DNA of 33,348 bases from a virus. The notes beneath the pieces were generated by a model. It ran no database searches, was not told the DNA's origin, and saw only the letters and a program-made list of their open reading frames with translations. The position numbers were made by a program, and so were the translations under genes. The stretch lies in the IMG/VR virus record IMGVR_UViG_3300020109_000077, positions 1 through 33,348 of that record; one strand, written 5' to 3'. This document shows positions 1,430-28,982 of the stretch, piece after piece. Position 1 is the stretch's first letter, and each line of letters begins with the position of its first letter.

Positions 1430-1723
1430 TCAATGTGGCAACGGGAACGGCTCGTCGATGTTGGCGAACGCCCTCGCCAGCACCACGGCCGGATCGGGCG
1501 ACGGCTTGTAGGGGTTCTGTATCCGGCGCCTGGCCCACTTGCTCTTTTTCACCGGCAGCAGATCCAGCAGGATATCGACGGCGCGCTTGCCCCACCGGCC
1601 CACCGCAAGCCGAAGATTCTCCTCCGTTGTCTCCGCGCCATCCGGCCACTGGCACCAGAACGCGGTAAACATCTGCTCGCACCGATAGCCGGCATCGCGC
1701 AGCGTTTGACATGTGATTAGCAC
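1430..1723 (-). CDS. Hypothetical 97-aa protein
   Basis: The GTG start at 1723 has an ideal AGGAGG seven bases upstream. The protein has an aromatic/Cys-rich N-terminal part (CQTLRDAGYRCEQMFTAFWC) followed by a basic helix (GRWGKRAVDILLDLLPVKKS, then KWARRRIQ). The tryptophan and Cys content suggest a compact fold, but I do not recognise it. It overlaps the 29-codon ORF 1717-1806 by seven bases, and that ORF carries its Shine-Dalgarno sequence, so translation of the two is probably linked. It lies directly downstream of the replication-initiator candidate, which suggests (inference only) a role in DNA replication or its control. Confidence 0.5.
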   Translation of the reverse strand: MLITCQTLRDAGYRCEQMFTAFWCQWPDGAETTEENLRLAVGRWGKRAVDILLDLLPVKKSKWARRRIQNPYKPSPDPAVVLARAFANIDEPFPLPH

Positions 1724-1806
1724 GGATAAGCCTCCTCATATACGAACAGGTTTTCCGGTTCTCTCGACCCGCACCGCCATTCATTCACCAGGCGAGGTTC
1801 ATTCAT
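1717..1806 (-). CDS. 29-codon coupling ORF between initiator and next gene
   Basis: A very short frame (MNEPRLVNEWRCGSREPENL...) whose ATG overlaps the stop codon of the initiator gene as ATGA and whose end contains the AGGAGG and GTG start of gene 1430-1723. Arrangement, not conservation, is the evidence: both ends interlock with neighbours. It may be a real micropeptide or only a translational bridge that carries ribosomes to the next gene. Confidence 0.35.
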   Translation of the reverse strand: MNEPRLVNEWRCGSREPENLFVYEEAYPC

Positions 1807-2738
1807 GACTGCTTCCTCTCCCGGGCTCGCTCGATGCGGGCCACTGCTGCCGGCCCGAACAGCGCCAGCACGTCGGCCAGCCGATCCTCCGGCTTGTACG
1901 CCGCTTCCTCGACCGCCGACTGCGGATTCCTTGCGGCGCCCGTCTCGCTACCAAACGCATTCCTGGCCGCCTCTAAGACCGCCCGATCAACTGCCAAGCC
2001 GTTGACCCGTCGATCGTACATGCACCACGCGCCTTCGGGGTCGAGCCGGTTGCGCAGGGTGCCCTTGACCACGGCCAGCCGGCGACCGGGCGGGACCTTG
2101 CGGCCTGCCGCGATCGCCGTGGCCAGGTCTTCCGTGGAAAGCGTTCCCCGGGCCACTGCCTGGGCGATTTTCACCAATGACGGCAGTTCCCGGCCGTCGA
2201 ATGGCAATCGGCCGGCAGCCGGCCAAAGGTCCGCCACGATCCGCTCGATGATTTGCCGCGCGTCGTTTCCGTCGTCGTTAGAAGAATTCAACGACGACGA
2301 CGGACGCGCGCGTGGGGTTTCCCCTCCGGGATTGGGCACGTTGGGACAAGTTGGCCCTGCGTGGGCCAAGTTGGCCCTGCCTGGGACAACTTGGCCCTGC
2401 CTGGGACAAGTTGGCCCTACGATGGACAGCCTATCCATGGCGGCGATCTGGTAGCACGTGCCCTGGCTGTCGGTTTGGGATCGCACCAGCCCCAGGCGGA
2501 TCGCCGTGGCCACCGTCCGCCTGGCCGTCTTGACGTGGCAGTCGAGCAGGTCTCGCCGCGTCAGTTCCTCTACGCTGATTGGCCACCATTCGTCTTCGCG
2601 TCCCTCGTGCGTATTGTCAAACACAGCCCGGCAAAAATCACGCACCCTTTTCCCCGCCCTGACCCTTTCAAGAGCTAGACTGAGCGCCGTCTCGCGCTCC
2701 AGACTCCGTTCGCCCGAAAAGTCCAAGGCTTCCTGCAT
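1803..2738 (-). CDS. Probable phage replication initiator (lambda O-like layout)
   Basis: A 311-residue protein. I place the start at the ATG at 2738 because GAGGAG then lies six bases upstream; the ATG at 2744 directly abuts it. The N-terminal 100 residues are helical and end in a winged-helix-like stretch (WPISVEELTRRDLLDCHVKT, then ARRTVATAIRLGLVRSQTD). Residues 107-137 form a Pro/Gly-rich linker containing GPTCP twice, 20 residues apart, because the DNA there is an array of four 20-bp repeats. The C-terminal half is helical (QIIERIVADLWPAAG, LAVVKGTLRNRLD). An N-terminal DNA-binding domain, a repeat-encoded linker and a C-terminal partner domain is the plan of lambda O and other phage replisome organisers. 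The function is inferred from this layout. The stop is ATGA-coupled to the next ORF. Confidence 0.55.
   Translation of the reverse strand: MQEALDFSGERSLERETALSLALERVRAGKRVRDFCRAVFDNTHEGREDEWWPISVEELTRRDLLDCHVKTARRTVATAIRLGLVRSQTDSQGTCYQIAAMDRLSIVGPTCPRQGQVVPGRANLAHAGPTCPNVPNPGGETPRARPSSSLNSSNDDGNDARQIIERIVADLWPAAGRLPFDGRELPSLVKIAQAVARGTLSTEDLATAIAAGRKVPPGRRLAVVKGTLRNRLDPEGAWCMYDRRVNGLAVDRAVLEAARNAFGSETGAARNPQSAVEEAAYKPEDRLADVLALFGPAAVARIERARERKQS
2270..2299. repeat. Perfect 10-bp inverted repeat beside the iterons
   Basis: CGTCGTCGTT (2270-2279) and AACGACGACG (2290-2299) are exact reverse complements around a 10-bp A+T-richer centre (AGAAGAATTC). It lies about 40 bp from the iteron array, still within the initiator gene, and encodes a Ser/Asn/Asp-rich stretch. 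It could be part of an origin (unwinding or hairpin element) or a by-product of the low-complexity codons. Confidence 0.5.
2341..2420. repeat. Four 20-bp direct repeats (iterons), candidate origin of replication
   Basis: Units 2341-2360, 2361-2380, 2381-2400 and 2401-2420 share the pattern TGGGacAAgTTGGCCCTgC with one to three differences each; unit 3 has AAC for AAG. Each unit contains an imperfect dyad, and in unit 2 it is perfect (2363-2377, GGGCCAA-G-TTGGCCC), as expected of a site for a dimeric protein. The 20-bp period is close to two helical turns, so all sites face one side of the DNA. The array sits inside the initiator coding region and encodes its linker. A degenerate partial unit may precede it at about 2331-2340. 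Confidence 0.75.
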
Positions 2739-2925
2739 CGGCATCTCCTCACTGGCGCCAAACAGTGCCGGCCTTGCACCGGCCCGGGGGTCCCCTTGCG
2801 GGCTGCTAGTCTCTCAACCCCTAAGCGCTACTCAGTTCGCAGTGCCCGCTTTGCGGCGGCCGCCGCGCTCCCAGCCGTGGCCGCGATTCAATTGGCTGGG
2901 TCGGCAAACAGGCTCATGGTTCCTC

Positions 2926-3612
2926 TTACGTCTCCACCGCGGTCCGCAGATCGTTGCGCCGCAGGTGCGCAGGCAGGTCGCTCTTGGGGTACTTTGCGGA
3001 CACGACCGCGGCCGTTGCCAAGCGGGCGCGGCGGTGCAGCTCGTCGATCTCCTTTTCGTGGTGCGCGATGAGCGGGGCGATTTTGACCTCTTCCGCGGCG
3101 TGGATTGCGGCCGCCAGTTCGTTGATCGCGATCTGTTCACGCCAGAAGACGCGCAGGTCCTCGTTGGTGTCGCCGCACAGTTCCAGTTCGAGATGGAACT
3201 GCCAATGCCTCCTGGCATACGCCTCCCGCCAGTTGGCCGGCTCGCGGGCCTCGTCGGCAAATGGTCTTCGCGTCAACATGCCGTCCTCCTCCTGAGCAGT
3301 GTTCTCAACCGGCGCGCCGACCGCGGTCTCGGCGAGGTGCTTCTCCACTCGGTCGCGCGTCAGTCCGGACAGGGAAGGCAAGGCGCGGCGATACCAGAAG
3401 GCGGCCCGGGCGCGCAGGTTCGCGGCCGCGTCTTTGTCTTTTTCCGCAGCGTCGTAGGACTCCGCCAGTTTCCACCAGGCGTCGCCCAACTCGACCTGCT
3501 GCTGGGCTGTCGCCGGCCCCTGGCGGTCCTGTTTGGCCAGGTCGGCCAGGGTCGGGTCGCTCCCCTTGGCCAACCGCGGAATCCCTCCCATGCCCGGCGT
3601 GCCGTGGCTCAT
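2926..3612 (-). CDS. Protein with Planctomycetota-type helical domain; probable internal second start
   Basis: A 228-residue frame. Residues 15-97 (TLADLAKQDRQGPATAQQQV, GDAWWKLAESYDAAEKDKDA, ARAAFWYRRALPSLSGLTRD, RVEKHLAE) match a helical domain I know from many cellular multidomain proteins of Planctomycetota, where a 'GD.WW.LAE' and '.R.A.YWY..ALP.L.GL....VEK' signature recurs; its function there is unclear. The C-terminal 117 residues (from MLTRRPFADEAREPANWREA) form a charged helical region. An ATG at 3279 has CAGGAGGAGGACGGC just upstream, so the C-terminal part may also be made as a separate protein (2926-3279). A 187-bp spacer with no convincing gene separates it from the initiator gene. 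Domain identity is from memory; role in the phage unknown. Confidence 0.6.
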   Translation of the reverse strand: MSHGTPGMGGIPRLAKGSDPTLADLAKQDRQGPATAQQQVELGDAWWKLAESYDAAEKDKDAAANLRARAAFWYRRALPSLSGLTRDRVEKHLAETAVGAPVENTAQEEDGMLTRRPFADEAREPANWREAYARRHWQFHLELELCGDTNEDLRVFWREQIAINELAAAIHAAEEVKIAPLIAHHEKEIDELHRRARLATAAVVSAKYPKSDLPAHLRRNDLRTAVET

Positions 3613-3615
3613 TGT

Positions 3616-3649
3616 TCATCCCTCATCCTTCATCCCATCCCTCATCCCC
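3616..3649 (-). repeat. Heptamer repeat array before gene 2926-3612
   Basis: On the minus strand the leader reads as GGATGAG/GGATGAA units of seven bases with one 5-base interruption (GGATG). The array spans the end of gene 3623-4081 and the start region of gene 2926-3612 and supplies the Shine-Dalgarno-like GAGG/AAGG of the latter. A related array occurs at 4077-4118. Confidence 0.65.
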
Positions 3650-4081
3650 CTTCCTCTCCGCTGTCGCCTCATGCAGCCGCACGCGCAGCGTCCTCGCCTC
3701 CTCGCGGGTCACCTCAATAGTTCTCTGGAGGCGATCTAGCCGGCGCTCCAGCGTTTCGCACCGCGCTACGGTCGCCGGAATTGATATCAATAGATTCTCC
3801 GTCTGCGACACCTCCTGGGCCGCCTCAATGGTGCTCAGCACGCGATCTACCCGGCGTTCCGCTGCCTTCTGGGCGAGCCTCAGGTCCGAGAGTTCCGCCA
3901 GGATCGCCGAAATCTCGCCAGCCAGGGACTGCTGGCGGTCCCCCAGGGCGACGACGCTCCGGCTAATCATGCGGTGATTCCTGCAGACGGCGGCAATGAA
4001 CGTGACAAACGCCAACAAGAAAACCGCTAGCGCGGTGATTCCTACGGACGGTGGCAGTGAAGCGGTGAACATTTCCATCAT
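3623..4081 (-). CDS. Single-pass membrane protein with long coiled coil
   Basis: A 152-residue protein. Residues 12-33 (GITALAVFLLAFVTFIAAVC) form one N-terminal transmembrane segment, preceded by a short acidic and Ser-rich tip and followed by NHRMISR. The rest is a predicted coiled coil with regular Leu/Ile heptads (EISAILAELSDLRLAQKAAE, CETLERRLDRLQRTIEVTRE). The layout recalls Rz-type inner-membrane spanins, or membrane-tethered phage exclusion proteins, but there is no partner Rz1 lipoprotein or endolysin nearby. Two or three in-frame ATGs at 4081-4072 compete for an upstream heptamer array that provides GGATAAGGG; I list the first. Function not established. Confidence 0.5.
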   Translation of the reverse strand: MMEMFTASLPPSVGITALAVFLLAFVTFIAAVCRNHRMISRSVVALGDRQQSLAGEISAILAELSDLRLAQKAAERRVDRVLSTIEAAQEVSQTENLLISIPATVARCETLERRLDRLQRTIEVTREEARTLRVRLHEATAERKGDEGWDEG

Positions 4082-4118
4082 CCCTTATCCTTCATCCCTC
4101 ATCCTTTATCCTTCATCC
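4077..4118 (-). repeat. Six-unit heptamer array between integrase and membrane protein genes
   Basis: Read on the minus strand, 4118 to 4077 gives GGATGAA, GGATAAA, GGATGAG, GGATGAA, GGATAAG, GGATGAT: six seven-base units differing only at two positions. It begins just after the integrase stop codon (4127) and ends at the ATG of gene 3623-4081, so it supplies the ribosome-binding region. Confidence 0.75.
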
Positions 4119-4126
4119 CCCGCCCC

Positions 4127-5098
4127 TCATCCCACTAGCCCGAAGCCGGGCGTGAACCCGGCGGGCAACTCGACCCGCTCCATCGCCGCCCGCGCCTCGT
4201 GGGCCTGACTGACGTACCACTGGGCCGTGGTCACGTCGGCGTGGTCGAGGATTTCCTGGAGCACGTGGGCCGACACGCGCGGGGCGAATAGTTGCGCGCA
4301 GGCCCGCTTCAGGTCGTGGATCGTTAGGTGCGGCACGCCGGCGATCCGCTGCAATCGCAACCATTGGCGCCACAGGGCCGGCCACGAGCACGACCGGGCG
4401 AACACGCGAGGGTCGCGGGCCTGCCGGATCACCACCAGGTGCCGGATCGCCTCGGGGCATAGCCCCTTGATCCGCTCGCAGCCTTCCTTGTCGTCCTCGG
4501 CCTCGATGCGCACGCTGCGCCCGGCCAGGTCCACGTGATCCCAGCGGAGGCTCAGCATGGCCCCGCGCCTCAGGCCAGTGGTCAGGGCCACGACGATCCA
4601 GGCGCGCCACCAGGCGGCCGGTGCCACCCCATGGATGATTGGGCATGTGGCATACTCCGCGGTCTGGTACACGCGGGCCAGCGCTGCCAAGTCGACCCGC
4701 TTGGGCAGGCGCCGCGGCAGTGTGAACGGTCGTGGACGCGGCACGCGGTCGAGCGCCTCCTTTCCCTCGGCCGCGTACCGCAGAATTGTCACCAGCGCCG
4801 TAAGCGTCTTGTTCACGGTTCGCCGGGACAGTTGCGCCGCCTTGCGCCCGGGCCGGCCCGCCAGCCAGTCCCGAAACTCCTCGAGCATGCGCTTGTCGAT
4901 CGCAGCCAGTGCTGGCTCTTCGCCTCGCCCCTCTTCGTGCCACCGCTCCCAATGTCCGATCGCCTCCGTGTAGCTGGCCATGGTCCCCGATTTCGCCTGG
5001 AACAAGAATTCCGGACGAAACCACTGGTCGAAGAAACTCCTGAATGTTGCCTTGCGGATCGCCGTCTTGGTGGTCCGATCGCTCGATGCAGCTCTCAT
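4127..5098 (-). CDS. Tyrosine recombinase / phage integrase
   Basis: A 323-residue integrase starting at ATG 5098 with GGAGGTACACC upstream. Residues 20-125 resemble the SAM-like core-binding domain (SFFDQWFRPEF, RRTVNKTLTALVTILRYAA). The catalytic domain shows Arg I in TTGLRRGAMLSLRWDHVDL (R177), a candidate Lys at 204, the HxxR box as HDLKR (H261, K264), the second His in LDHADVTTAQWY (H286) and the nucleophile Y295, nine residues after H286 as in canonical enzymes. The second catalytic Arg is replaced by Lys, which is unusual and could lower or abolish activity unless R265 substitutes. Length is typical of short phage integrases. The candidate attachment region lies about 5 kb away (10.1 kb), not adjacent. 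Confidence 0.9.
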   Translation of the reverse strand: MRAASSDRTTKTAIRKATFRSFFDQWFRPEFLFQAKSGTMASYTEAIGHWERWHEEGRGEEPALAAIDKRMLEEFRDWLAGRPGRKAAQLSRRTVNKTLTALVTILRYAAEGKEALDRVPRPRPFTLPRRLPKRVDLAALARVYQTAEYATCPIIHGVAPAAWWRAWIVVALTTGLRRGAMLSLRWDHVDLAGRSVRIEAEDDKEGCERIKGLCPEAIRHLVVIRQARDPRVFARSCSWPALWRQWLRLQRIAGVPHLTIHDLKRACAQLFAPRVSAHVLQEILDHADVTTAQWYVSQAHEARAAMERVELPAGFTPGFGLVG

Positions 5099-5387: not shown

Positions 5388-5805
5388 GATTCCTGCGCGT
5401 GCGGCCTTTGGGTTTTTGTCTCGCTAGTTTGCGGACCCTCATCACAGTCGCCGCTAATACCCTTCGGTATGGCATCGGATTCCATCTACGGCGACAAATC
5501 TTGATCGAGCGAAATGCGTTTTTCCAAGTCTCAGTCAATGGGAACTCTCCATGAAACCTCCGCAGAACGCGGCGGATTTCCTGGATGGCCAAGAACCACT
5601 CGCCCCTGACATTGATCGGAGCTAGCTTTCGATGTAGCCAATTCTCATCAGCCCAGCATCCGTCGAATCTGGCTAGTTCTCGGACTTCACTTGGGCAGCT
5701 TGATTGAATGTTTCTGAGTCGTCTGTCGACCCCAGAGTCGGTTTCGGAGAAACCAATCTTGATGACATGCAATCCGACTGCTTCGGCAAAGTAAATCATG
5801 GTCAT
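5371..5805 (-). CDS. GIY-YIG family nuclease (T5orf172/Mug113-like), probable mobile cassette
   Basis: A 144-residue protein starting at ATG 5805, where RecT stop and this start overlap as TGATG and GGAG lies five bases upstream. The fold signature is visible in order: IYFAEAVGLHVIKIGFSE (the GIY...YIG strands, degenerate as IYF...IKIG), DRRLRNIQSSCPSEVRELA (conserved helix Arg and the CP.....L strand), then WLHRKLAPINVRGEWF, the E/H-helix and 'GEWF' hallmark of the T5orf172/Mug113 branch. A basic C-terminal tail (RRRW, ARQKPKGRTRRNRRLEL) could bind DNA. The gene is clearly lower in G+C than both neighbours and is bounded by 17-bp direct repeats, which suggests recent insertion. Its role (freestanding homing-type nuclease or host-DNA nuclease) is not shown. 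Confidence 0.75.
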   Translation of the reverse strand: MTMIYFAEAVGLHVIKIGFSETDSGVDRRLRNIQSSCPSEVRELARFDGCWADENWLHRKLAPINVRGEWFLAIQEIRRVLRRFHGEFPLTETWKNAFRSIKICRRRWNPMPYRRVLAATVMRVRKLARQKPKGRTRRNRRLEL

Positions 5806-5821
5806 CACAACTCCAATCGCC
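5805..5821. repeat. 17-bp direct repeat, right copy (GIY-YIG cassette end)
   Basis: TCACAACTCCAATCGCC, identical to 5371-5387. On the minus strand it encodes the RecT C-terminus RLEL-stop and the Shine-Dalgarno sequence used by the GIY-YIG gene. Confidence 0.8.
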
Positions 5822-6629
5822 TCTGCTGTGCCGCGGTGGCGAACCGGCTGAACGCCTCCGGGTCGAGCTTCCGCTTTGCCTCCATCACGGCCTGGTTGAT
5901 CTCGCGCTGGCAGGTCGCCTCGCGCAGGCGATCGGCCAGGTGCTCGTCGGCCAGCGGGTCGCCGGGCTGCTCGGCTGGCTCGTCCTCCGATTCCGGCTCG
6001 CCCGAGGCCGGCGGCTCGGGGCCTTCCTCTTCTGTCGGCCCGTGCATCGCTTCCTCGGCGGCGTGAAGTCCGCGCAGCACGTCAGCAAACGCATCGCGCA
6101 GCGCCCACGACCGGGCTCGCAGTTGGAGCATGCGCCGCGGGTACTGCTGCCACGGCCCGGCCTTCTCGGTCAGGCCGGCCGTCTTGGCGTCGGCCATCGA
6201 GAATGATCGAGTGACCGGCTTGCCGTCCGGCAGCCGGCGCACGGTGCAGGTGGCCGTTAGCACGCCCCCTTGGCTGGCCGTCGATTCACTGAATGCCGAT
6301 TCGTCAAACAGACCCGAGGCCCGGCAGACGCCCAGCATGGCGTCGCCCCAGATGCTCGGTCTGCCGTTGATGACGGCGATGTTTTGCAGCGCGGCCATGG
6401 GCGGCAGGCCCAGTTCGGCCCCGAGCTGGATCGCCACCAGCACGGCGGCCGGGGACTTGACGTTGGCCGGGGCCAAGCCTGAGGCGATCACCTGTTCGGC
6501 GAATGCCATCATCTCAGCCATGGTCGAGAGCTGGAGTCCCCGCGGCCCGCGGGCCGGGGCCGCCGGCGCGGCGTGCGCCGGCAGCGGGGCGAGTTGGTTG
6601 GGGTTGTGGGTGGTGGTTGCGGTGGTCAT
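5805..6629 (-). CDS. recT: RecT-family single-strand annealing protein
   Basis: A 274-residue protein starting at ATG 6629 with AAAGGAGCCACGC upstream. After a Pro/Ala-rich N-terminus, residues 29-105 (PRGLQLSTMAEMMAFAEQVI, then KSPAAVLVAIQLGAELGLPP, then MAALQNIAVINGRPSIWGDA) carry the conserved core of phage RecT-like annealing proteins, including the 'G..A....IQ.G.ELGL.PM.AL..I.VINGRP.I.GD' signature. A following stretch (KPVTRSFSMADAKTAGLTEK, GPWQQYPRRMLQLRARSWAL) matches the family's strand-annealing core. The C-terminal 60 residues are acidic and probably flexible. The family pairs complementary single strands during phage recombination and replication and usually acts with an exonuclease; the PD-(D/E)XK protein just upstream is the obvious candidate. 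Confidence 0.85.
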   Translation of the reverse strand: MTTATTTHNPNQLAPLPAHAAPAAPARGPRGLQLSTMAEMMAFAEQVIASGLAPANVKSPAAVLVAIQLGAELGLPPMAALQNIAVINGRPSIWGDAMLGVCRASGLFDESAFSESTASQGGVLTATCTVRRLPDGKPVTRSFSMADAKTAGLTEKAGPWQQYPRRMLQLRARSWALRDAFADVLRGLHAAEEAMHGPTEEEGPEPPASGEPESEDEPAEQPGDPLADEHLADRLREATCQREINQAVMEAKRKLDPEAFSRFATAAQQRRLEL

Positions 6630-6651
6630 GCGTGGCTCCTTTGGGTTGAGG

Positions 6652-7281
6652 CTACTCGCTTAGCGGCGAGCCCAGCAGGGCCCACCGTTCGCCGTTCACC
6701 GTGAACGGCTGCTGTCTCGACCAGATAACCAGCTTGGAAAAGTCGATGTATCTGAATGGTGTGCCGCTGTAGTCTTCGGTTGGCCGAAAGTCCGGGTTCT
6801 GTCGCGGTGCAACCCACCCATCCTCGTCGATGGGCCAGCGGCGAGCCGGGTCGTATCGGCTTAGTCGCGCGTAGGAGTCAATGAACTGCAATTCCTGAAT
6901 GTCCTGCCAAAGCAACTGCTGATTCGCCAGCGGGACGCTCTTGAGTCGTTTGAAGAACAGCACGACCCGATGGCCGATGGCGTGGTATTTCAGGTACGAC
7001 TCATAGGCGTCGCGCTCGATGGCTTTGGCCGCTTTCGCATCCCAAAGCACGACCCGCTCATCCGTGCGACACAGCACGCCATCGGGGCTGTGTCGCAGGA
7101 GTTGTGCTCCCGGATCGTTCGATCGTCTGATACGAGCCGACACAACCGGGGCAATGCTTTCTCCGCCGTACCGTTCCACCGCCGCCACCTCTCGACAGGA
7201 TTGAAGCAGGGCCATCAACTCTTGCTCGAATTGCTGCCCGGGGCGCAGCCGCGCCTCGAACAATCTATTTGTGTGTCCCAA
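6652..7281 (-). CDS. PD-(D/E)XK-type nuclease candidate
   Basis: Up to 209 residues. An N-terminal helix with EQELMALL is followed by a strand-rich core in which SPDGVLCRTDERVVLWDAKA gives the D...(D/E)xK arrangement (Asp of SPDG, Asp and Lys of DAK) typical of restriction-like nucleases, and then a helix AIERDAYESYLKYHAIG. The rest (FFKRLKSVPLANQQLLWQDI and a Trp-rich C-terminus) is unassigned. It lies immediately upstream of recT, where phages often encode the exonuclease partner, but it does not look like RecE or YqaJ, so that role is inference. The start is uncertain: TTG at 7281 overlaps the upstream methyltransferase by 17 nt; an in-frame ATG 22 codons later has a weak AAGAG. Confidence 0.6.
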   Translation of the reverse strand: MGHTNRLFEARLRPGQQFEQELMALLQSCREVAAVERYGGESIAPVVSARIRRSNDPGAQLLRHSPDGVLCRTDERVVLWDAKAAKAIERDAYESYLKYHAIGHRVVLFFKRLKSVPLANQQLLWQDIQELQFIDSYARLSRYDPARRWPIDEDGWVAPRQNPDFRPTEDYSGTPFRYIDFSKLVIWSRQQPFTVNGERWALLGSPLSE

Positions 7282-8530
7282 AGATCATCAAGTCGCGGTT
7301 GATGTACAGGATCTCCCGCTTTTCCTGGGCCATCTTGACGAATGCCGCGCTGTGGATTTCCGTGTTGTAGGGGACGATAATCCGGGCCAGGGGCGTCAGG
7401 TACTTTGCGATCCGCGCGTAGCAGAGAAACGGCAACTCGATGTATCGCCCGTCCTCTTTCCACGGGCCGATCAACAGGGCGAGCTTTCCCTTGTGGTTCC
7501 CCTGCCACTTGCGCTTGATCCACTTGGCGATGTTGGCGATGCAATCCAAGAACGCCTCCAGGCCCATGTTCGCCAGGTCGGTCGCCTTGTCGCTGTACTT
7601 CCCTTTTGCCTGCTGCCAGTAGGGCGGGTCGAGGAAGACCATGTCGGGGACGGGCAAATCGTCAGGCAGCCCCGTCGTGATGTCGTGCTGCCGAATTTCG
7701 TGCTTGCGGGCCTCGATCGGCGTCAGGTCCGAAACGTAGTACCGTCGCCAGCGTTTGCGGCACACGTCGATGGTCACGGCCCCGCCACCGAACGGATCAA
7801 ACACCACGTCAAACGGCTTGGTGTAGTAGTAGAGCAGGTTGTCGATGATCTCCGGCGGGATGTTGCCGAAGATCCGGATCTGGTTGGTGGCCATCGGGAA
7901 GCTCCAATTCGCGTAGACCTTACGCTCAAAGTCTGACTCGTGCGAGATTGCAGATTTTTTCGCTTTCGGAAGTGCTTCCGATTCCGAAATTTTCTGCAAG
8001 AACTCGTTTACGGCTCCAATAGCAAGCCCCACCGCGTCCGCGATTTCCTGTTGCGTATGGCAGGCCAGCCACATGGCGGTCATCTTCTCTTCGCGCTCCG
8101 CCTGTAGCTGGTCGTCGATGTCTTGGAGGTAGGTGCGGACCTGGCGTTCCGTCACTGACAGCACTTCAGCGATCTCAGCCTTCTCGCAGCCCTCGCCTCC
8201 CATATAGAGCCGGATGGCCATCTTGGACTTATCCCGCTCCGTAAGCTGCTTGCCAGCCGTGGCGTTGCGTCGGCAGGCGAGGGCCATGAACTCCGCGTCG
8301 CTGGCGGTCTTGGTGACTGTCACCCGGATCGTCTCGCACTTCCTCGTCTTGTGCGCCGTCCAGCGATGCCAACCGTCGATCAACTCGTTGTGCTGGTTGA
8401 CCTCGATGGGTGGCAGCAACTCGACCACCTCGGCGTATCGCTGAACCAGGGCCGGATCTTTCTCGATGCGCGGATACAGGTCTTCACGCATCACGACATC
8501 GGCAACGGGCAGTTCACCGTTCGTTTTCAT
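7265..8530 (-). CDS. ParB-N domain / HTH / DNA methyltransferase fusion
   Basis: A 421-residue protein; ATG 8530 is chosen because GGAG lies at good spacing. Residues 1-90 form a ParB/Srx-like domain with the signature LIDGWHRWTAHK (50-61). Two HTH segments follow: KAEIAEVLSVTERQVRTYL (117-135) and TQQEIADAVGLAIGAVNEFL (159-178). The C-terminal half is an amino-methyltransferase with motif I VFDPFGGGAVTIDV (243-256) and the catalytic DPPYW (301-305), so it should methylate the exocyclic amino group of adenine or cytosine. The motif order (I before IV) is opposite to the other methyltransferase at 31-33 kb. Such fusions are common in phage early regions; DNA protection, partition-like binding or transcription control are all possible. 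It overlaps the upstream zinc-ribbon gene by 17 nt. Confidence 0.85.
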   Translation of the reverse strand: MKTNGELPVADVVMREDLYPRIEKDPALVQRYAEVVELLPPIEVNQHNELIDGWHRWTAHKTRKCETIRVTVTKTASDAEFMALACRRNATAGKQLTERDKSKMAIRLYMGGEGCEKAEIAEVLSVTERQVRTYLQDIDDQLQAEREEKMTAMWLACHTQQEIADAVGLAIGAVNEFLQKISESEALPKAKKSAISHESDFERKVYANWSFPMATNQIRIFGNIPPEIIDNLLYYYTKPFDVVFDPFGGGAVTIDVCRKRWRRYYVSDLTPIEARKHEIRQHDITTGLPDDLPVPDMVFLDPPYWQQAKGKYSDKATDLANMGLEAFLDCIANIAKWIKRKWQGNHKGKLALLIGPWKEDGRYIELPFLCYARIAKYLTPLARIIVPYNTEIHSAAFVKMAQEKREILYINRDLMIFGTHK

Positions 8531-8720
8531 TCCTGACTCCATGCCAGACTGGAAACCCCACAAACCTTCCGCAGCGGGCGCAGTCGCGGCGGGTGGACCG
8601 GCCCTCGTGGATCGGCACGTCGCGGAACTCTCCAGCCCCGCACCGCGCACAGCAGCCCGGCGGCCGCTCCGCGGGCCGTCTGACCGACAGAATCGCAATC
8701 GTCCGGTCACTCGGGATCAT
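8514..8720 (-). CDS. 68-aa zinc-ribbon protein
   Basis: The ATG at 8720 has GGGGAGGAGAGC upstream, much better than the longer in-frame alternative from 8990. The protein begins MIPSDRTIAILSVRRPAERP and carries two Cys knuckles, CCARCG at 28-33 and DCARCG at about 51-56, with a basic stretch between, the spacing of a small zinc ribbon. Ribbons of this type bind nucleic acid or stabilise a small fold; no further assignment. Its last codons overlap the methyltransferase start. The 260 bp upstream (8721-8980) hold no ORF with a credible start; a TTG-initiated 78-codon frame there looks like chance. Confidence 0.6.
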   Translation of the reverse strand: MIPSDRTIAILSVRRPAERPPGCCARCGAGEFRDVPIHEGRSTRRDCARCGRFVGFPVWHGVRNENER

Positions 8721-17383: not shown

Positions 17384-18166
17384 TCACGTGCCGATCCCCA
17401 GCAAGGCGAAGTTGGCCGAACCGTACATCTTCTCGACGTGGACGGCGATGGCATCGATCACGTTGCGGTTGACTGCGCCAAGCTCCTGTTGCTGGTATTC
17501 GATCCAAAGGTAATGATGCGGCGGTTTGTCCACGCCACTGATCGAGCCGTAGGTGAGGTTGGTCTGGCCGACATCGCGCACGAAGTGGAATGTCACCTCC
17601 ACCCGGTCCGGGTCTTTGTTACTCCCGCTCCCCTGGGCGCCCATGAACAAGACCGACCCTGCCGGCTTGCCGCGGAAAACGGCGTTGTTGACTTTGCCGG
17701 TGAGCAGCTCCAGCGTGTCGCTATACGCGAAGCTCGCGGCGGCCAAAGGGAGCTGCCAAACCTCGGTCCACTTGAACTGGGCTACCACGATTTCGCAGCC
17801 CTCGACCTCGCCGTTCTGATTGACCCCGATTGCGCCGTTGTTGTTGTGCGCGGCCGGGTAGTCGGCGATGTGCTGGAAGGCGTGAGTAACCTTGGCGGTG
17901 CCGCCCGTGGTGTCGAAGTTCCACTTGAACTCCCACGGGTCGATCGGGCCATACTCAGCGTCGATGTACCACAGGTTGAATCCCTGGGGATCAATGCGGA
18001 TCGTCTCGCGCCACAGGCCGTGGTAGATCGCCGGCAGGTTGGCTTTGGCATAGGCCAGCACGTACTGGTCGTCCTGGGTGCCGCTCAGCCAGTAGCGCAA
18101 AACGGCGCGGTCCGGCGTGTCGGTGAGGTCGCGCGAGAGCGGCCGTTCATTCCAGATGATTGCCAT
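17384..18166 (-). CDS. Tail-tip / baseplate candidate
   Basis: A 260-residue beta-rich protein from ATG 18166, directly after the tape measure gene. The sequence (WNERPLSRDLTDTPDRAVLR, YWLSGTQDDQYVLAYAKANL, YIDAEYGPIDPWEFKWNFDT) lacks membrane or enzyme motifs. The gene immediately after the tape measure in siphoviruses usually encodes the distal tail protein or another tip component, and size and strand content fit. The repeated Asn/Gly region (HNNNGAIGVNQNGE) is probably a surface loop. Assignment rests on gene order. Confidence 0.5.
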   Translation of the reverse strand: MAIIWNERPLSRDLTDTPDRAVLRYWLSGTQDDQYVLAYAKANLPAIYHGLWRETIRIDPQGFNLWYIDAEYGPIDPWEFKWNFDTTGGTAKVTHAFQHIADYPAAHNNNGAIGVNQNGEVEGCEIVVAQFKWTEVWQLPLAAASFAYSDTLELLTGKVNNAVFRGKPAGSVLFMGAQGSGSNKDPDRVEVTFHFVRDVGQTNLTYGSISGVDKPPHHYLWIEYQQQELGAVNRNVIDAIAVHVEKMYGSANFALLGIGT

Positions 18167-18172
18167 GGGATC

Positions 18173-20089
18173 TCACGGGCCGAAGGCAACGGCTTGGCCA
18201 AACAGGCGGGCCTGGACTCGCCACCAGCGGGCGTCTTCTTGCATTTGGCGCAGCATGGCCTGGGTGTTGCGGGCGGTCTGCCGTTGGGGGTCGGCCAGCG
18301 GGCCGCCGAACTGCATGGCTGCGGCGGCCCAGCCGCTGAACGTGCCCCCGATGCGGTCCGCGCCGCCTCCGAGGGCGCCCAGCAGGCCGCGCTTAGGTAA
18401 CTCGGGGACCTGGCCCTGACGCAGCGCACGGGCCTGGTCGACTAGGGCGACCAGTTCGGCCCGCGTCCGAGCCTGCTGCGCCTGGGCGGCCGGCAGGCCG
18501 GCCCCGGCGGCTGCGGCTTTCCACGCAGCTTGCTTCCGCTGGCCCCAAGCCTGGATGGCGGCGAGCTGCTGCTGCTGGGCGGCAAGCGCCCCGGCCATCT
18601 TCGTGCCGGCGGCGGCCCAGACAACAGGGGCCGCCCGGCCGACCGGCGCCGGCCGGATGGCTGCGGGCAGCGAGGCGAAAATGCTGTTGAGCAGGTTGTT
18701 GAACCCGATCTCCACTTCGGCCATGAGTTGGTAGAGGGTGATCTTCAGCGCGCCTACGGCCTTTGGCCAGAGCGAGCCCATAGCGACTGCGATGTCCACA
18801 ATCGTGTCGATAGCAAACCCTTTGACGTTCTCCCAGGCCATGTACCCGGCGACCTTCAGCGTGTCCCAGACGTACTGAAAGCCTTTGGCGAGAATCTTGG
18901 CAGCCAGCATCACGTCGCCGCCCGCCAGCGCATCGACGATGCCGCCGGCCGCGTAGCCCAGCCATCGGGCGAGGCTCGTGAAAACCCGGCGCAAGAAGGT
19001 CCAGGTGTTTGCCAGCACGCTGCGCAAATTGAGAAGGGCGCCCGCGACAATAGCCAATATGCCGACCACGAGGCCGAGGGGCGAAGTGATGGCCGTCACG
19101 AGCATTCCGCCGAGGGCGAAGAATCCGCTTACAAGGGCCGCGATGATCGGCCCGCCGATGCGCGTTAGCAGCAGGGCCAGCGGGCGGAGGAATTGCAGGG
19201 CCTTGCCAAACACGGCCAGCGACGCGCCCAGGGCGACCAGGGCGCTATTGACCCCGAAAATCTGGCGCACCAAACGCTCGTTGTTCTCGATCCACTCCCG
19301 CAGACCCTTCATGGCCAGGATCGCCTTGTCGGTGTAGACCTCGGTGACCGGGGCCAGCGCGCCGCCGATGGCCCGGGCCGCGCTGGTCGAGACCATGGCG
19401 AGAACGTGGAACTTGTCGTTGAGCCGCCCTGCCGCGGCCGCGGCCTGGGCGTTGACGATGAGGCCCAGGTCTTTGGCGTTCTGCATGAAGCCGCGCAGGG
19501 CCTTGGCCCCGCCCTGGATCATGGGCAGCAGCTTTGTGCCGCTTCTGCCGAAGACGGACATAGCGACCGCGGCCCGGTCGGTAGGGTTTGGGATCTTGTC
19601 GATGGCGTCGGCAATCGCCAGGAACTGCTCGTCCATGCTGAGGTTGGCGAGGCCGCGCATGTCCAGCCCGAGCTGGCGCAGCAACTCTCGCGGGCCCTTG
19701 GAGCCGTGGGCAGCTTCAGAGAGCATCTTGGCCATGCGGCGCAGGCCGACCTCCAGGTCTTCGCCGGTCGCCCCGGACTGCTCAGCGGCGAATCGCAGGC
19801 CGCCGAACGCCTCGACCGCCATGCCCGCGCGCGCGGCCGCTTCATCGAGGGCCTCGCCGTAGGCGGCCCACATTTTCACGGCCAAGCCCATGCCGGCCAC
19901 GATCCCGGCCGGCGAGGCGAATCGCTCAAGGATCGCCATCATAGGGCCGGGCAGGGCGCCGCCGAACGCGCGCATCCCGAAGCCCTGGATCGCGGCGCCG
20001 GTCCGGGCCAGGGCGCTGAGGAACTTGCTGTTCTTGAGATACAGCTCAACGTGGGCACGGCCGGCCGCGATGTCAGCTCGGGTTGCCAT
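18173..20089 (-). CDS. Tail tape measure protein
   Basis: A 638-residue protein; I prefer ATG 20089 over the TTG two codons earlier. It begins MATRADIAAGRAHVELYLKN and has the family's pattern: helical N-terminal tape region with SGATGEDLEVGLRRMAKMLS and FGRSGTKLLPMIQGGAKALR, the classic tape measure signature 'FG.SG..LLP', then a hydrophobic segment (IIAALVSGFFALGGMLVTAI, LGLVVGILAIVAGALLNLRS) that may enter the membrane during DNA ejection, and a Gln/Ala-rich C-terminus. Tape measure proteins set tail length at roughly 0.15 nm per residue, which would give a tail near 95 nm, and drive DNA ejection. It overlaps the end of the chaperone frameshift product by 17 nt. Confidence 0.85.
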   Translation of the reverse strand: MATRADIAAGRAHVELYLKNSKFLSALARTGAAIQGFGMRAFGGALPGPMMAILERFASPAGIVAGMGLAVKMWAAYGEALDEAAARAGMAVEAFGGLRFAAEQSGATGEDLEVGLRRMAKMLSEAAHGSKGPRELLRQLGLDMRGLANLSMDEQFLAIADAIDKIPNPTDRAAVAMSVFGRSGTKLLPMIQGGAKALRGFMQNAKDLGLIVNAQAAAAAGRLNDKFHVLAMVSTSAARAIGGALAPVTEVYTDKAILAMKGLREWIENNERLVRQIFGVNSALVALGASLAVFGKALQFLRPLALLLTRIGGPIIAALVSGFFALGGMLVTAITSPLGLVVGILAIVAGALLNLRSVLANTWTFLRRVFTSLARWLGYAAGGIVDALAGGDVMLAAKILAKGFQYVWDTLKVAGYMAWENVKGFAIDTIVDIAVAMGSLWPKAVGALKITLYQLMAEVEIGFNNLLNSIFASLPAAIRPAPVGRAAPVVWAAAGTKMAGALAAQQQQLAAIQAWGQRKQAAWKAAAAGAGLPAAQAQQARTRAELVALVDQARALRQGQVPELPKRGLLGALGGGADRIGGTFSGWAAAAMQFGGPLADPQRQTARNTQAMLRQMQEDARWWRVQARLFGQAVAFGP

Positions 20090-20273
20090 CGGCAAGGGCC
20101 TTCAGGACGTTTGGATCGTAGGGCACCGGTTCGCGCTTCTGGGGCAGTTCGCCGGTCAACGCCAGGCACAACATGGCGAGGAAGTCCTCGCGCTTGCCGC
20201 GCACCATCAGGACGAGTTGGCGGGCGGTGAACGGCCGGGGGTCGAGCCCAAGGACGCCACCGCACTCCCAAAG
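20073..20273 (-). CDS. -1 frame extension of the tail assembly chaperone (gpGT-like T domain)
   Basis: In the frame shifted by -1 relative to gene 20207-20743, the DNA encodes SLLWECGGVLGLDPRPFTAR, then QLVLMVRGKREDFLAMLCLA, ending PYDPNVLKALADGNPS. The 'LWE.....G.DPRP.T.REL..M..G' pattern is what I know from the T part of tail chaperones or the short ORF after them. There is no start codon and RBS in this frame at the right place, so a ribosomal frameshift that fuses it to the upstream chaperone is likely, as in lambda G/GT. No ideal X-XXY-YYZ heptamer is present; CTTTGGG (20273-20267) sits exactly where the similarity begins. Confidence 0.55.
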   Translation of the reverse strand, partial: LWECGGVLGLDPRPFTARQLVLMVRGKREDFLAMLCLALTGELPQKREPVPYDPNVLKALADGNPS

Positions 20274-20743
20274 GAGCGACTCAACTCCTCGGCCATCGCC
20301 CGCTCCACCTCGGCGTCGATCGCCGGGTCGTTCGCTTTTTCGCGGTACATCGCGATCGCCTTCGTCCTGAACGTCTCCGCCTTCTCCAGCAGCGTCGTCA
20401 GGGCCGGCTGCCGGAGCTTCTGGAAAAAATCCAGCCAGTCGGCCAAAAAACAGTCTTGGGCGGCTGTGAAGCATTCGGCGAGGATCAGGTCGGCGAAGGC
20501 TTCGGGGGCAACGCCGCGGCGCTCCATCTCGCTGGCCAGCAAGTAACAGAGCAGCTCCCAGAAGGCAACCGGGTCGTACTGGATGGCGTGAAGCAACGGC
20601 AGCTTGTCGTCGCCGGCAAACGGCCCAGCCGGGTCCAGCAGGTTGAAGCGGCCGCCCGATTCGCGCTTGATCTTCAGAAACAACCCGAAGGTGAAGTCGG
20701 GCAACTTCCATTCCGTGCCGTCGGCGTCCCGAAACGCGCTCAT
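20207..20743 (-). CDS. Tail assembly chaperone (gpG-like)
   Basis: A 178-residue protein from ATG 20743, ATGA-coupled to the upstream gene, with GGAGGACAGC upstream. It starts MSAFRDADGTEWKLPDFTFG followed by a helix, the usual start of siphovirus tail chaperones, where a short beta hairpin about a virion-linked 'D..G.EW.L' element precedes helices (LHAIQYDPVAFWELLCYLLA, PEAFADLILAECFTAAQDCF). It lies one gene downstream of a structural protein and just before the tape measure, the invariant place for gpG. The frame ends after SRSFGSAVASLGSTPGRSP; a -1 shift near 20270 continues into the T domain. Confidence 0.65.
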   Translation of the reverse strand: MSAFRDADGTEWKLPDFTFGLFLKIKRESGGRFNLLDPAGPFAGDDKLPLLHAIQYDPVAFWELLCYLLASEMERRGVAPEAFADLILAECFTAAQDCFLADWLDFFQKLRQPALTTLLEKAETFRTKAIAMYREKANDPAIDAEVERAMAEELSRSFGSAVASLGSTPGRSPPANSS

Positions 20744-21360
20744 GGTGTGCTGTCCTCCAGGCTTAGGATCTTCAGCGTGGCGGCGGCAGTCGTGTCGTTG
20801 TGACTCGCCTTGGTGGAGACAATCGGGTTGCCAGTGAACACGTTGGTATCGCCGCCGTCGATGTCCCAGACTTCGGGCTTGTTGGCCGCCAGGTCGATTT
20901 CTTCGATCGTCACGGGCGCGCTGTCCACCATGTCCACGTGGCCCAGGCCGATCGCGTCGGCGTCTTCATAGTGCAGCTCGACGCCGAGAATCTTCACGGC
21001 ATCGCCGTCGATCTGGGTGTTGACGGCGACCTGGCGGCAGACGATGCACGAGGCGCCGTTGGCCGGGAAGTCGTCGCCGGCGCCGCCGTTGAGCGACAGG
21101 GCGTTGCCGGCGATTGTGCCGGGCACGCTGTAGCGGAGGCCGCCCGACCAGTACACGTCGAAGTTGCCGTTGGCGTAGCCGTGGCCCGCGGGCAGGTTGC
21201 ACGCGGCGATGCTGGCGCTGGTCTTCACCCAATCGGTCGCCGTTTTGGCCGCTGGCAGCGCGATCTCATAGTAATTGGGATGATCCGCGCTGCGAGTCGC
21301 GTGGCGGTGCAGCGCGAACGAACCGCAGCTCAGACTTACGGCGTAGTTGACGGCGGGCAT
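20740..21360 (-). CDS. Beta-rich virion structural protein, unassigned
   Basis: A 206-residue protein from ATG 21360, four bases after the stop of the previous gene. It contains VSLSCGSFALHRHATRSADH, LNGGAGDDFPANGASC, then ILGVELHYEDADAIGLGHVD and EEIDLAANKPEVWDIDGGDT, mostly predicted strands with two Cys. It lies between a small decoration-like protein and the chaperone, where siphoviruses sometimes carry a second tail-tube or tube-decorating protein. I do not recognise the family; role inferred from position. Confidence 0.45.
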   Translation of the reverse strand: MPAVNYAVSLSCGSFALHRHATRSADHPNYYEIALPAAKTATDWVKTSASIAACNLPAGHGYANGNFDVYWSGGLRYSVPGTIAGNALSLNGGAGDDFPANGASCIVCRQVAVNTQIDGDAVKILGVELHYEDADAIGLGHVDMVDSAPVTIEEIDLAANKPEVWDIDGGDTNVFTGNPIVSTKASHNDTTAAATLKILSLEDSTP

Positions 21361-21364
21361 GTTA

Positions 21365-21772
21365 TCAAGCAATCTGGGCGCTGGTGGTGGTCAAGAGCAG
21401 TTGCACCAGCGACGTGGAAATGCCCACGCCGATCACGGTGATAAAATTGGTGGCGACCAGGTCGGCGGCCGGGGCGATCTTGCCCGCGGCGGCGGAGAGC
21501 ACGTAAAAGGTGCCCGCGGCCACGGTCGCGCCGAGGTTGATCTGGCCGGCCCGCTGCACGAGGATCGGCTGGTTGACCGCCCCGCCGTTCAGCGCAATGC
21601 CGTACACGTCGTCGTCGGTGGCAGCGTCGCACTGGGCGAGGTACACCTTGCCGTCAGCGGCCTTGACGTAGACCGGCGCGCCGGCGGTGATCGTCTCGCC
21701 GGCCGTCTTGGTCATGGTTTCCGCGCCGGTTCCGCTGACCACGCTGGTTGCTGTTTGGGTGAGGTCTGCCAT
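21365..21772 (-). CDS. Decoration/head-fibre-like beta protein
   Basis: A 135-residue protein from ATG 21772. TMTKTAGETITAGAPVYVKA, DGKVYLAQCDAATDDDVYGI, ALNGGAVNQPILVQRAGQIN and GKIAPAADLVATNFITVIGV follow the beta-strand layout of DUF2190/capsid-cement and similar small virion proteins ('AGETI.AG..VY......K...A......YGIAL......V.....G'). It is located among tail genes, so it may decorate the tail or be a displaced head protein. Its leader is a heptamer repeat array rather than a normal RBS. Confidence 0.55.
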   Translation of the reverse strand: MADLTQTATSVVSGTGAETMTKTAGETITAGAPVYVKAADGKVYLAQCDAATDDDVYGIALNGGAVNQPILVQRAGQINLGATVAAGTFYVLSAAAGKIAPAADLVATNFITVIGVGISTSLVQLLLTTTSAQIA

Positions 21773-21780
21773 GATGGACT

Positions 21781-21810
21781 CAGGGTTCAGGGTTCAGGGT
21801 TCAGGGTTCA
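21781..21810 (-). repeat. Heptamer array (AACCCTG x4) between tail tube and decoration genes
   Basis: Plus strand CAGGGTT repeated four times exactly (21781-21808) plus CA; on the minus strand it starts at the tail-tube stop codon and ends seven bases before the ATG of gene 21365-21772. Period is seven bases as in the arrays at 3616-3649 and 4077-4118, though the unit differs. Confidence 0.8.
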
Positions 21811-22230
21811 CACGTAAAGCTGTGGATCGCGGTCCTCGGCGGTGGGCGTGGCGGTGAACTGCCAGGTCTGCTCCGCGCCGTGGGGCTCGCCCTTTTTGCA
21901 GTCCAGGATGCAGTCGCCGTCAAAGCCCTTGGCCGAGGCGTAGTCTTTGGTGCGGATTGCCACGGCGGCGCCGGTGAAGGCCGCGGCCTTGAGGGCCTCC
22001 AGACTCGTATCGCTGGTCTTTTCGAGCATCGTGAACTCGATGGTGACCCCAAGCTCGGTCACGCGCTGGCTGGTGATCGGCGGTGTGGAGCCGCTGCCGC
22101 GCGTGGTGGTGTCGCCCTTCTTGGGGTCAAGGTTGTAGTTCACGTCGCGCACGTTGGTGAGCTTGGTGCTTGCCGTGGCGCCTTTTGCGCCGTAGTAGAT
22201 TTCGCCCTCAAACGCCATTTTCGTGGCCAT
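21808..22230 (-). CDS. Major tail tube protein
   Basis: A 140-residue protein from ATG 22230 with AAGGAGAATCCT upstream. It starts MATKMAFEGEIYYGAKGATA and continues VRDVNYNLDPKKGDTTTRGS, VTELGVTIEFTMLEKTSDTS, AVAIRTKDYASAKGFDGDCI and WQFTATPTAEDRDPQLYV. This N-terminal beta hairpin, the 'VRDV......KGDT..RG...........T...E.T' core, and the helix plus C-terminal strand pattern are typical of siphovirus tail tube proteins. It follows the tail-completion genes and precedes the chaperone and tape measure, as expected. Forms the helical tube through which DNA passes. Confidence 0.75.
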   Translation of the reverse strand: MATKMAFEGEIYYGAKGATASTKLTNVRDVNYNLDPKKGDTTTRGSGSTPPITSQRVTELGVTIEFTMLEKTSDTSLEALKAAAFTGAAVAIRTKDYASAKGFDGDCILDCKKGEPHGAEQTWQFTATPTAEDRDPQLYV

Positions 22231-22257
22231 AGGATTCTCCTTGTTGGTCGGTTGGTT

Positions 22258-22647
22258 TCATGCGCCGATGGAGCCTCGCCAGCTTGCTTGGAACTGGCCA
22301 GCCATGGCCAAAAGCGCGGGAAACATGAAGGGCCGCTCGTCGTATTGCCGGCCGCGGAACTCGCCGCCGTGCTCGTGCGCCCCGCCCACGCCGCCCGAGA
22401 GGCTGAAGGCCGGGCCGATGACCGCGCCGTAGGCGTCGGCCCAAAACACGATCGCCTTGGGGAGGCGTCGCGTGTGGGTGTGCGGCGGCTCGCCCGGGGG
22501 CGAGGCGCCCTTGCGCTTGCGCATCAGCGACATGGCCCTCTTGCGGATGACCGAGGCGGCGTGGCGGAAGTTCTCAAAGCCAGCCTTCTCGGCGGCGTCG
22601 CGCACCTGGCGGGAGCGGTCTTCGTAGCTGATTTCGACGCCGATCAT
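22258..22647 (-). CDS. HK97-gp10-like head-tail/tail completion protein
   Basis: A 129-residue protein from ATG 22647, ATGA-coupled to the upstream gene. FRHAASVIRKRAMSLMRKRK gives a basic helix, SPPGEPPHTHTRRLPKAIVF matches the 'PG.PP.....L..SI.F' part of the HK97 gp10 / tail-completion family, and DERPFMFPALLAMAGQFQAS matches its 'RPFM.PAL' C-terminal element. It should act where the tail joins the neck. Confidence 0.65.
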   Translation of the reverse strand: MIGVEISYEDRSRQVRDAAEKAGFENFRHAASVIRKRAMSLMRKRKGASPPGEPPHTHTRRLPKAIVFWADAYGAVIGPAFSLSGGVGGAHEHGGEFRGRQYDERPFMFPALLAMAGQFQASWRGSIGA

Positions 22648-23114
22648 GCCATTTCCCCATGCACCGCGTACTCCAGCTCGATCACGGCCACAAACAGGTC
22701 GGCCTGCCGGAGGCGCGTCGGCAAGTAAGGCATCAGGCCGCCCTCGGGCAACTCGACGAACTTTGCGTCCGGGTATCCGGCCAAGGCCGGCTCGCGGCTA
22801 GCCAGGTATTCGAGGATCGCCCCGGCCAGTTTGGCCAGGCCGTCGCACAACGCGGTGTCGCCCTGCGACACCGCCTTGCGCACGCAAATGTCGATCGGCA
22901 CATCCACTCGCCAGCCGCCCACGGTGATCCTCTCGACGCGCGGGCGGCCGTAGAGAACGTGAACTTGGAGGGCGTCAGCCGATTCTCGCCAGAGTTCCGT
23001 GTCGTAGCTCCGCGCCGGCGTAAACGTCTCGGTAAACGCATCACGGGCCACGGCAAGCTGTAGCTCGTCGACCACGGCGTCGGCAACGGCGATGGCGATC
23101 GCGGCGGGGTTCAA
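22644..23114 (-). CDS. Tail terminator-like protein
   Basis: A 156-residue protein. The start is TTG at 23114, overlapping the previous stop as TTGA; no better start lies nearby. ARDAFTETFTPARSYDTELW, ALQVHVLYGRPRVERITVGG, RVDVPIDICVRKAVSQGDTA and LCDGLAKLAGAILEYLASRE give the strand-helix pattern of tail terminators (lambda gpU/minor tail type), in which a central sheet and a long helix cap the tail tube. The position between a stopper-like and a gp10-like gene supports this. Confidence 0.6.
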   Translation of the reverse strand: MNPAAIAIAVADAVVDELQLAVARDAFTETFTPARSYDTELWRESADALQVHVLYGRPRVERITVGGWRVDVPIDICVRKAVSQGDTALCDGLAKLAGAILEYLASREPALAGYPDAKFVELPEGGLMPYLPTRLRQADLFVAVIELEYAVHGEMA

Positions 23115-23485
23115 CGGGCAAGCTCCAGCTTGGTGTGGATGCGGTAGCGGCTCCGGGCGGCATCGACCTCGAACACCCGGCCATCGGACAGGGGCAACAC
23201 CAGATAGGTGTCAACCTGGGCGCCGCGGTCCCATTCGATCTTGTCGCCACGGGCCGGCGTGATCGGCACGTCGTCCACCATCAGCTCGGCAACGGCGACC
23301 AGAAAATCGGTAAAGATTTCCGTTTCAATGAAGCTGCGTTCGTTGGCCACTTGGTGCTCCGTGCGCCCGACTGTGGCGGAGAGCGAAATCGCCGTGGCCC
23401 CGCGCCAGTAGACGACGGACTGCGAGACGTGCTCGGCCAGCACGTCGCTGAGCCAGGCGGCGGCAGTGGCCAAGAGGTCGCTCAT
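23111..23485 (-). CDS. Head-tail connector/stopper-like protein
   Basis: A 124-residue protein, ATG 23485, one base after the upstream stop. SDLLATAAAWLSDVLAEHVS leads into a beta domain VVYWRGATAISLSATVGRTE, then TDFLVAVAELMVDDVPITPA and YRIHTKLELAR. The pattern 'R.G.....L.AT.G.T......G......DFL....L........P..GD.I' matches the head-closure or head-tail joining proteins seen between capsid and tail genes in siphoviruses. Assignment from gene order plus pattern. Confidence 0.6.
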   Translation of the reverse strand: MSDLLATAAAWLSDVLAEHVSQSVVYWRGATAISLSATVGRTEHQVANERSFIETEIFTDFLVAVAELMVDDVPITPARGDKIEWDRGAQVDTYLVLPLSDGRVFEVDAARSRYRIHTKLELAR

Positions 23486-23486
23486 C

Positions 23487-24209: not shown

Positions 24210-24257
24210 GGATTGGCTCCAGGATGAAGGGCGCAAGCGGCCCGGCTGCCGAGGGAG

Positions 24258-24971: not shown

Positions 24972-24993
24972 CTTTCACGCTCCGTTAGCGGTT

Positions 24994-25028
24994 TCGGTTT
25001 GTCAGGCGGTTGTCGGTTTGTCAGGCGG
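24994..25028. repeat. Two 16-bp direct repeats between capsid and decoration genes
   Basis: TCGGTTTGTCAGGCGG occurs at 24994-25009 and 25013-25028 (19-bp period), just downstream of the capsid stop codon. Probably a small local duplication; no hairpin of note. Confidence 0.6.
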
Positions 25029-25032
25029 ACGA

Positions 25033-28714: not shown

Positions 28715-28902
28715 CAGGTCATACCCGGAGGAAGCAGCTTGGCGAATCGGATGCCCGGTTTGCGGGAAGCCGCCGCCTGTTTGCTGGAGAGGTAGCGGTC
28801 CATGGCGATCAGGTCGGGCAGGCTCCGCTGCTGGGCTGATGTGCCGTCCACGGTCGCGCTGGCCGGAGTGGTGGCCGCCGTTTCGAGAGTTTCGCTGTCC
28901 AT
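28714..28902 (-). CDS. gpW-like small head-tail protein candidate
   Basis: A 62-residue protein from ATG 28902. After an Ala/Thr/Ser-rich N-terminus it reads SLPDLIAMDRYLSSKQAAAS, then RKPGIRFAKLLPPGMT. The gene lies between the large terminase and the portal, exactly where lambda encodes gpW, and the size (gpW is 68 residues) and the helix-then-strand end 'L.DLI..DRYL.........R..KL.PP' fit that family. gpW plugs the portal after packaging. Assignment is by position, size and pattern. Confidence 0.5.
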   Translation of the reverse strand: MDSETLETAATTPASATVDGTSAQQRSLPDLIAMDRYLSSKQAAASRKPGIRFAKLLPPGMT

Positions 28903-28963
28903 GACTTCAGCCTGACAACGGCTTTGCCTCTGGGCGGAAAGCGGGGCTGAATGGCGAGAAAAT

Positions 28964-28979
28964 GTTCCACCCGTGGAAC
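28964..28979. repeat. GTTCCAC-CC-GTGGAAC palindrome
   Basis: Perfect 7-bp arms around CC, just after the zinc-ribbon gene stop codon (minus strand). On the plus strand it is followed by TTTTT, so it could terminate rightward transcription; on the minus strand the hairpin is followed by ATTTTC. The arms resemble parS half-sites (GTTCCAC) but the centre has two extra bases. Confidence 0.6.
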
Positions 28980-28982
28980 TTT

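Follow-up and report, generated by a model that had tools for sequence, protein, structure and literature searches.

The locus and its candidate initiator gene

The window, meaning the whole stretch of DNA that was analysed, comprises 33,348 bases catalogued as a virus record, and nearly all of its genes lie on the minus strand. Gene 4127-5098 codes for an integrase and gene 5805-6629 for a RecT-like annealing protein; head, portal, tape-measure and large terminase (TerL) genes are also present, and the phage is tailed and probably temperate. Positions 17718-33348 are shared at 99.97% identity with a further viral record, L084, which extends 4 kb beyond the right end of the window; the window is therefore a phage fragment. 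The best 80 terminase matches kept from species genomes were nearly all from Planctomycetota, at about half identity, so a planctomycete host is probable. Among the genes tested in this fragment, none was recognised as encoding a helicase, loader or primase, and no tRNA or Rfam family was found in the window.

Several other features of the window were recorded. Segments 23489-24209 and 24260-24971 are ~75% identical in DNA; these are tandem copies of one structural-region gene, located upstream of the gene for the head protein. Gene 7265-8710 encodes 481 aa with weak ParB-like and helix-turn-helix matches together with a DNA methyltransferase domain. Degenerate 7-bp repeats (TCATCCC/TCCTTCA) were found at 3616-3648 and 4074-4132, at gene ends flanking ORF 3623-4081, and a perfect heptamer array (TCAGGGT x4.4) at 21780-21810 is unexplained.

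Coordinates of the candidate initiator gene and of the features within it are given in Table 1. The open reading frame starts at 2744 and encodes 313 aa (P0001, whose numbering is used throughout), but the start at 2738, as in the initial annotation, was preferred because of the GAGGAG motif ahead of that ATG. The gene was considered real, as it lies on the same strand as all main genes and has a GC content by codon position of 0.68/0.54/0.75.

Table 1. Features of the candidate initiator gene and its iteron array (window coordinates; strand left empty where not applicable).
Feature	Coordinates	Strand	Details
Candidate replication initiator gene	1803-2738	minus	311 aa from ATG 2738; orphan protein
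Ribosome-binding site GAGGAG	2745-2750	minus	6 nt before ATG 2738; read from sequence
Predicted winged-helix domain	2439-2702	minus	residues 15-102 of P0001; H-H-H-H-E-E; low-confidence models
Unstructured linker	2277-2438	minus	residues 103-156 of P0001; contains iterons
Helical C-terminal part	1806-2276	minus	residues 157-313 of P0001; about residues 200-230 at pLDDT 70-79
Iteron unit 1	2342-2361		dyad 2343-2357 GGGACAAGTTGGCCC, 6/7 pairs
Iteron unit 2	2362-2381		dyad 2363-2377 GGGCCAAGTTGGCCC, 7/7 pairs, perfect
Iteron unit 3	2382-2401		dyad 2383-2397 GGGACAACTTGGCCC, 6/7 pairs
Iteron unit 4	2402-2421		dyad 2403-2417 GGGACAAGTTGGCCC, 6/7 pairs
Possible fifth, degenerate dyad	2423-2437		TGGACAGCCTATCCA, 6/7 pairs, 8/15 identical to consensus
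AT-rich patch, candidate unwinding element	2272-2291		65% AT in 66% GC sequence
Perfect inverted repeat	2268-2304		TCCGTCGTCGT / ACGACGACGGA, 11-bp arms, 15-nt gap

Two single-sequence AlphaFold models of P0001 were obtained, both of low confidence (mean pLDDT 44-45). Both show helices followed by two strands to residue 102, no structure to residue 156 and then helices, so that the predicted order is winged helix, disordered linker and helical C-domain. The putative recognition helix falls at about residues 71-83 of these low-confidence models, and the C-terminal part is proposed, from the layout, to contact a helicase or its loader. Winged-helix proteins were frequent in the Foldseek list obtained with the N-domain, none of them significant, and no match at E<=0.001 came from the fold searches. 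The initial annotation had suggested a structure prediction for an N-terminal winged helix; the predicted secondary structure agrees with one, but the models are of low confidence and the fold matches not significant. A match to PDB entry 3f85, which involves fimbrial fusion chains and spans the linker together with the first portion of the C-part, was rejected as spurious.

P0001 had no Pfam or NCBIfam match; its sole PHROG match was a weak one to phrog_22054 (function unknown, E 0.007), and no O-like PHROG was reached at E<=0.05, in agreement with the earlier description of the protein as not recognisably O. Relatives were sought by pattern-plus-tblastn in IMG/VR and 84,980 genomes, in 18 related viral records and 392 Planctomycetota genomes, and by phmmer against 12,445 ORFs of fetched loci, and nothing credible was found in any of them; among 50,697 phage records, tblastn yielded nothing at E<=0.01. 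A match in L216 was discarded because it looks compositional and lies in non-phage DNA around RuvA-like and peptide-release-factor-like genes.

A tandem array of dyads in linker-coding DNA

Tandem Repeats Finder and a repeat search identified a repeat of period 20 at 2342-2418 (3.8-4 copies, 91% matches, 0 indels). The four contiguous units read, in order, TGGGACAAGTTGGCCCTGCG, TGGGCCAAGTTGGCCCTGCC, TGGGACAACTTGGCCCTGCC and TGGGACAAGTTGGCCCTACG. Each contains a dyad of 15 bp. Between units, the centre base varies (G or C), as do one arm position (A or C) and the spacer. Four contiguous 20-bp dyad repeats with a perfect second unit had been described at 2341-2420; the repeats and their location were confirmed, with the exact ends shifted by one base to 2342-2421. 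The candidate fifth dyad keeps the 20-bp register of units 1-4.

An 18-bp pattern derived from the array was found, with <=3 mismatches, at four sites in the 33,348 bases, which are exactly the four units; shuffled sequences held 0.08 such sites on average and never more than one. The tandem dyad-array detector found 0 arrays in 60 dinucleotide-shuffled windows, and the window holds neither a second array nor other copies near its other promoters.

The array corresponds to residues 109-134 of P0001 and so lies within the linker, as first reported. Since the 20-bp period shifts the reading frame by two per unit, the units are read in phases 2, 1, 0 and 2 and encode the unlike peptides VGPTCP, GQVVP, ANLAH and GPTCP. 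What is repeated is therefore the DNA and not the protein, and the original argument that selection on protein sequence cannot explain a period that is not a multiple of three holds.

The AT-rich patch lies on the gene-downstream side of the iterons and is only ~20 bp long; among the 14-mers of the window, its best one ranks in the top 0.1%. It is surrounded by the inverted repeat 2268-2304, which is partly a trinucleotide repeat. A hairpin formed by this repeat was rejected as a structured element, as its fold was no better than that of shuffles (z -1.1).

Dyad arrays in other phages and in known initiator genes

Loci of RecT- and TerL-related phages (2.85 Mb) were scanned with a looser dyad-array detector, which replaced a stricter one that had found only three arrays. 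The scan gave 22 arrays, as against 0 in 2.85 Mb of shuffled related DNA. Thirteen of them, a count that includes the near-duplicates L041/L050 and the same record under L106/L123, lie in genes with PHROGs for replication initiation (O-like), DnaD-like helicase loader or primosomal functions. The remaining 9 arrays are low-complexity coding repeats with spacings that are all multiples of three. The palindromes in initiator genes vary from phage to phage, their spacing is often, for example, 19, 22, 23 or 25, and most of these arrays directly follow the winged helix. Arrays in initiator-type genes were present in three TerL relatives of the window: CGGCCAAAATGGCCG x3 in L133 (46% identity), GTGACG..CGTCAC in L123 (48%) and GGCCAACTTGGCC in L232 (33%). 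The layout is not universal, since in the TerL relative G010/L124 an initiator-like gene beside recT has no detectable iterons.

In the O-like and DnaD-like PHROG genes of the RecT- or TerL-related phages L004, L007, L033, L036, L043 and L056, and likewise in those of L063, L133, L217, L255 and L268, palindromic iterons lie between an N-terminal winged helix and a C-domain. Their spacing is 18-25 bp in most cases, compared with 20 bp here, but P0001 reaches none of these families by sequence. Ten phages (L004, L007, L033, L036, L037, L043, L056, L057, L063 and L133) carry phage-specific palindromic iterons in the linkers of winged-helix initiators, and many of these iterons have the form xCCmA-n-TTGGx.

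IMG/VR was searched for two close copies of GGCCAASTTGKCC and then with a wider pattern. Near-identical palindromes were found in the linkers of initiator-like genes of five phages (L217, L218, L232, L255 and L268), where they encode different amino acids, for example AAKLAAPEGKLAAGAAKLAAP in L232. The initial annotation had proposed to compare related phages for repeats conserved despite changing amino acids; the five phages show such a pattern, but the searches gave no relative of the protein itself in which repeat conservation could be followed. Among the 80 loci of the wider pattern, 41 were pentapeptide-repeat-like genes, in which GCCAACTTG codes for ANL, and many others were unrelated coding repeats; all of these were discarded. 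None of 392 Planctomycetota genomes contained the palindrome pair. In L219, two pairs of GGCCAAsTTGGCC-like palindromes (6217-6252 and 6736-6768) lie outside recognised initiator genes and flank an HTH ORF (6326-6661); they may be operators.

L232 and L218 come closest to the full palindrome and also give the best alignments with the N-domain of P0001, at the putative recognition helix. In this segment KTARRTVATAIRLGLVR of P0001 resembles RSVRRAVADGRRLGLLR of L232 (p 0.017) and VRSCRRYTAMAVELGLL of L218 (p 0.007), with p-values obtained by shuffling and uncorrected over eight comparisons. The coincidence of palindrome closeness and recognition-helix likeness in these two phages is suggestive only. 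A more speculative proposal, to which we give perhaps one chance in several, is that dyads and recognition helices belong together in initiators that are otherwise unrelated, GGCCAASTTGGCC being paired with [RK][ST]xRRxxAxxxxLGL. If so, initiator specificity in phages might be readable from sequence, and the N-domain would travel with its origin as a single cassette, joined to different C-domains.

The locus was further compared with three established systems. In phage lambda the origin iterons lie inside the initiator's own gene, O (PMC7466680). In both ori-lambda and the present locus, some four imperfect palindromes follow one another as iterons in mid-gene. Lambda has an AT-rich stretch beside them, for which the patch at 2272-2291 is a candidate counterpart here. 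The O protein has an N-terminal DNA-binding domain, a variable middle and a C-terminal partner domain (PMC7466680), an order like the one predicted for P0001. Tandem inverted-repeat iterons are found between the N- and C-parts of the gene, as in the lambda O family, but the N-domain matches none of the family profiles: neither Phage_rep_O (PF04492) and TIGR01610 nor the O-like PHROGs. The palindrome is also unlike that of lambda, the AT-rich region has only about 20 bp, and no P-like loader was recognised among the genes tested in this fragment.

Phage SPP1 provides a second established case of an origin, oriL, inside the gene of its own initiator, gp38, with direct repeats adjoined by an AT-rich element (PMC6316719). 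Here, no second origin and no gp39- or gp40-like genes were found in the window, and P0001 has no sequence match to this system, although the phage records searched by tblastn may lack SPP1.

A similar arrangement is seen in a plasmid protein, pSK41 Rep of the RepA_N family, which has about 319 aa; four boxes located centrally in rep are bound by its N-terminal domain, the origin DNA encodes the linker, and the helical C-domain is similar to DnaD (PMC5703833). P0001 differs in being encoded by a phage, its helical C-domain is a prediction, and it gave no RepA_N or DnaD match in Pfam and no PDB relative of that kind.

Interpretation as a probable replication origin, and alternatives

The array is probably an intragenic origin in the style of lambda, SPP1 and RepA_N, bound by the product of its own gene. 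Here we infer a mechanism of protein binding, dimerisation, unwinding and helicase recruitment. The four, perhaps five, boxes would be binding sites of the product of the gene that contains them and would make up the origin core. The N-terminal winged helix would bind each 15-bp dyad, probably as a dimer, and boxes 20 bp apart, or about two helical turns, would bring the bound protein into a compact complex. The AT-rich patch beside this complex would then open, which is the weakest step of the proposal because the patch is short, and the helical C-terminal domain would bring in the host helicase or the loader of that helicase. The origin DNA would happen to encode a flexible inter-domain linker, which tolerates almost any sequence.

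Three other explanations were weighed, and all are less good than an origin because the comparative pattern fits them worse. The dyads could be operator or silencer sites for a transcription regulator, either a phage repressor or P0001 itself. Palindromic 15-mers are typical of dimeric regulators, the N-domain of P0001 weakly resembles winged-helix regulators, and the similar palindromes of L219 lie outside an initiator gene and near an HTH ORF. However, the start codon is about 320 bp away from the array, which lies in mid-gene; a search of 1700-3000 gave no promoter-like site of the sigma-70 type; no copies accompany the other promoters of the window, and such arrays of other phages fall in replication-initiation genes. 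We consider this explanation improbable.

Still less probable is a neutral or coding minisatellite, that is, a recent tandem duplication in a tolerant Pro/Gly linker with no function of the DNA. The linker does tolerate expansion and the units are similar enough for a recent duplication, but every unit retains its dyad, the fifth has lost sequence identity yet kept dyad symmetry, the 20-bp period scrambles the protein sequence, and a near-identical palindrome occurs at the same gene position in other phages. Least probable of all is a centromere-like partition site or other nucleoprotein site for a different protein, such as the weakly ParB-like methyltransferase encoded 5 kb away at 7265-8710. 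Tandem dyads do also serve as centromeres, but the integrase argues for integration over plasmid maintenance, the window lacks a second array, and the linker of a winged-helix gene is the typical location of an origin in the phages compared.

Under the preferred reading as an intragenic origin, the earlier suggestion that an unrelated initiator had converged on the lambda layout finds no support and is not needed, as the predicted winged helix and the likeness of the recognition helix are just as compatible with a divergent protein of the broad O/DnaD-like class. Phage lambda and others already provide examples of the intragenic-iteron layout, which is found here in a protein without recognised relatives.

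Few genetic tools exist for the phylum Planctomycetota. If this reading is right, a candidate initiator and its origin are now available from a phage of this phylum, and segment 2338-2440 together with the gene could serve directly as a candidate replicon. More generally, initiator genes that are missed by family models would then be recognisable by short palindromic arrays in the DNA that encodes a linker.
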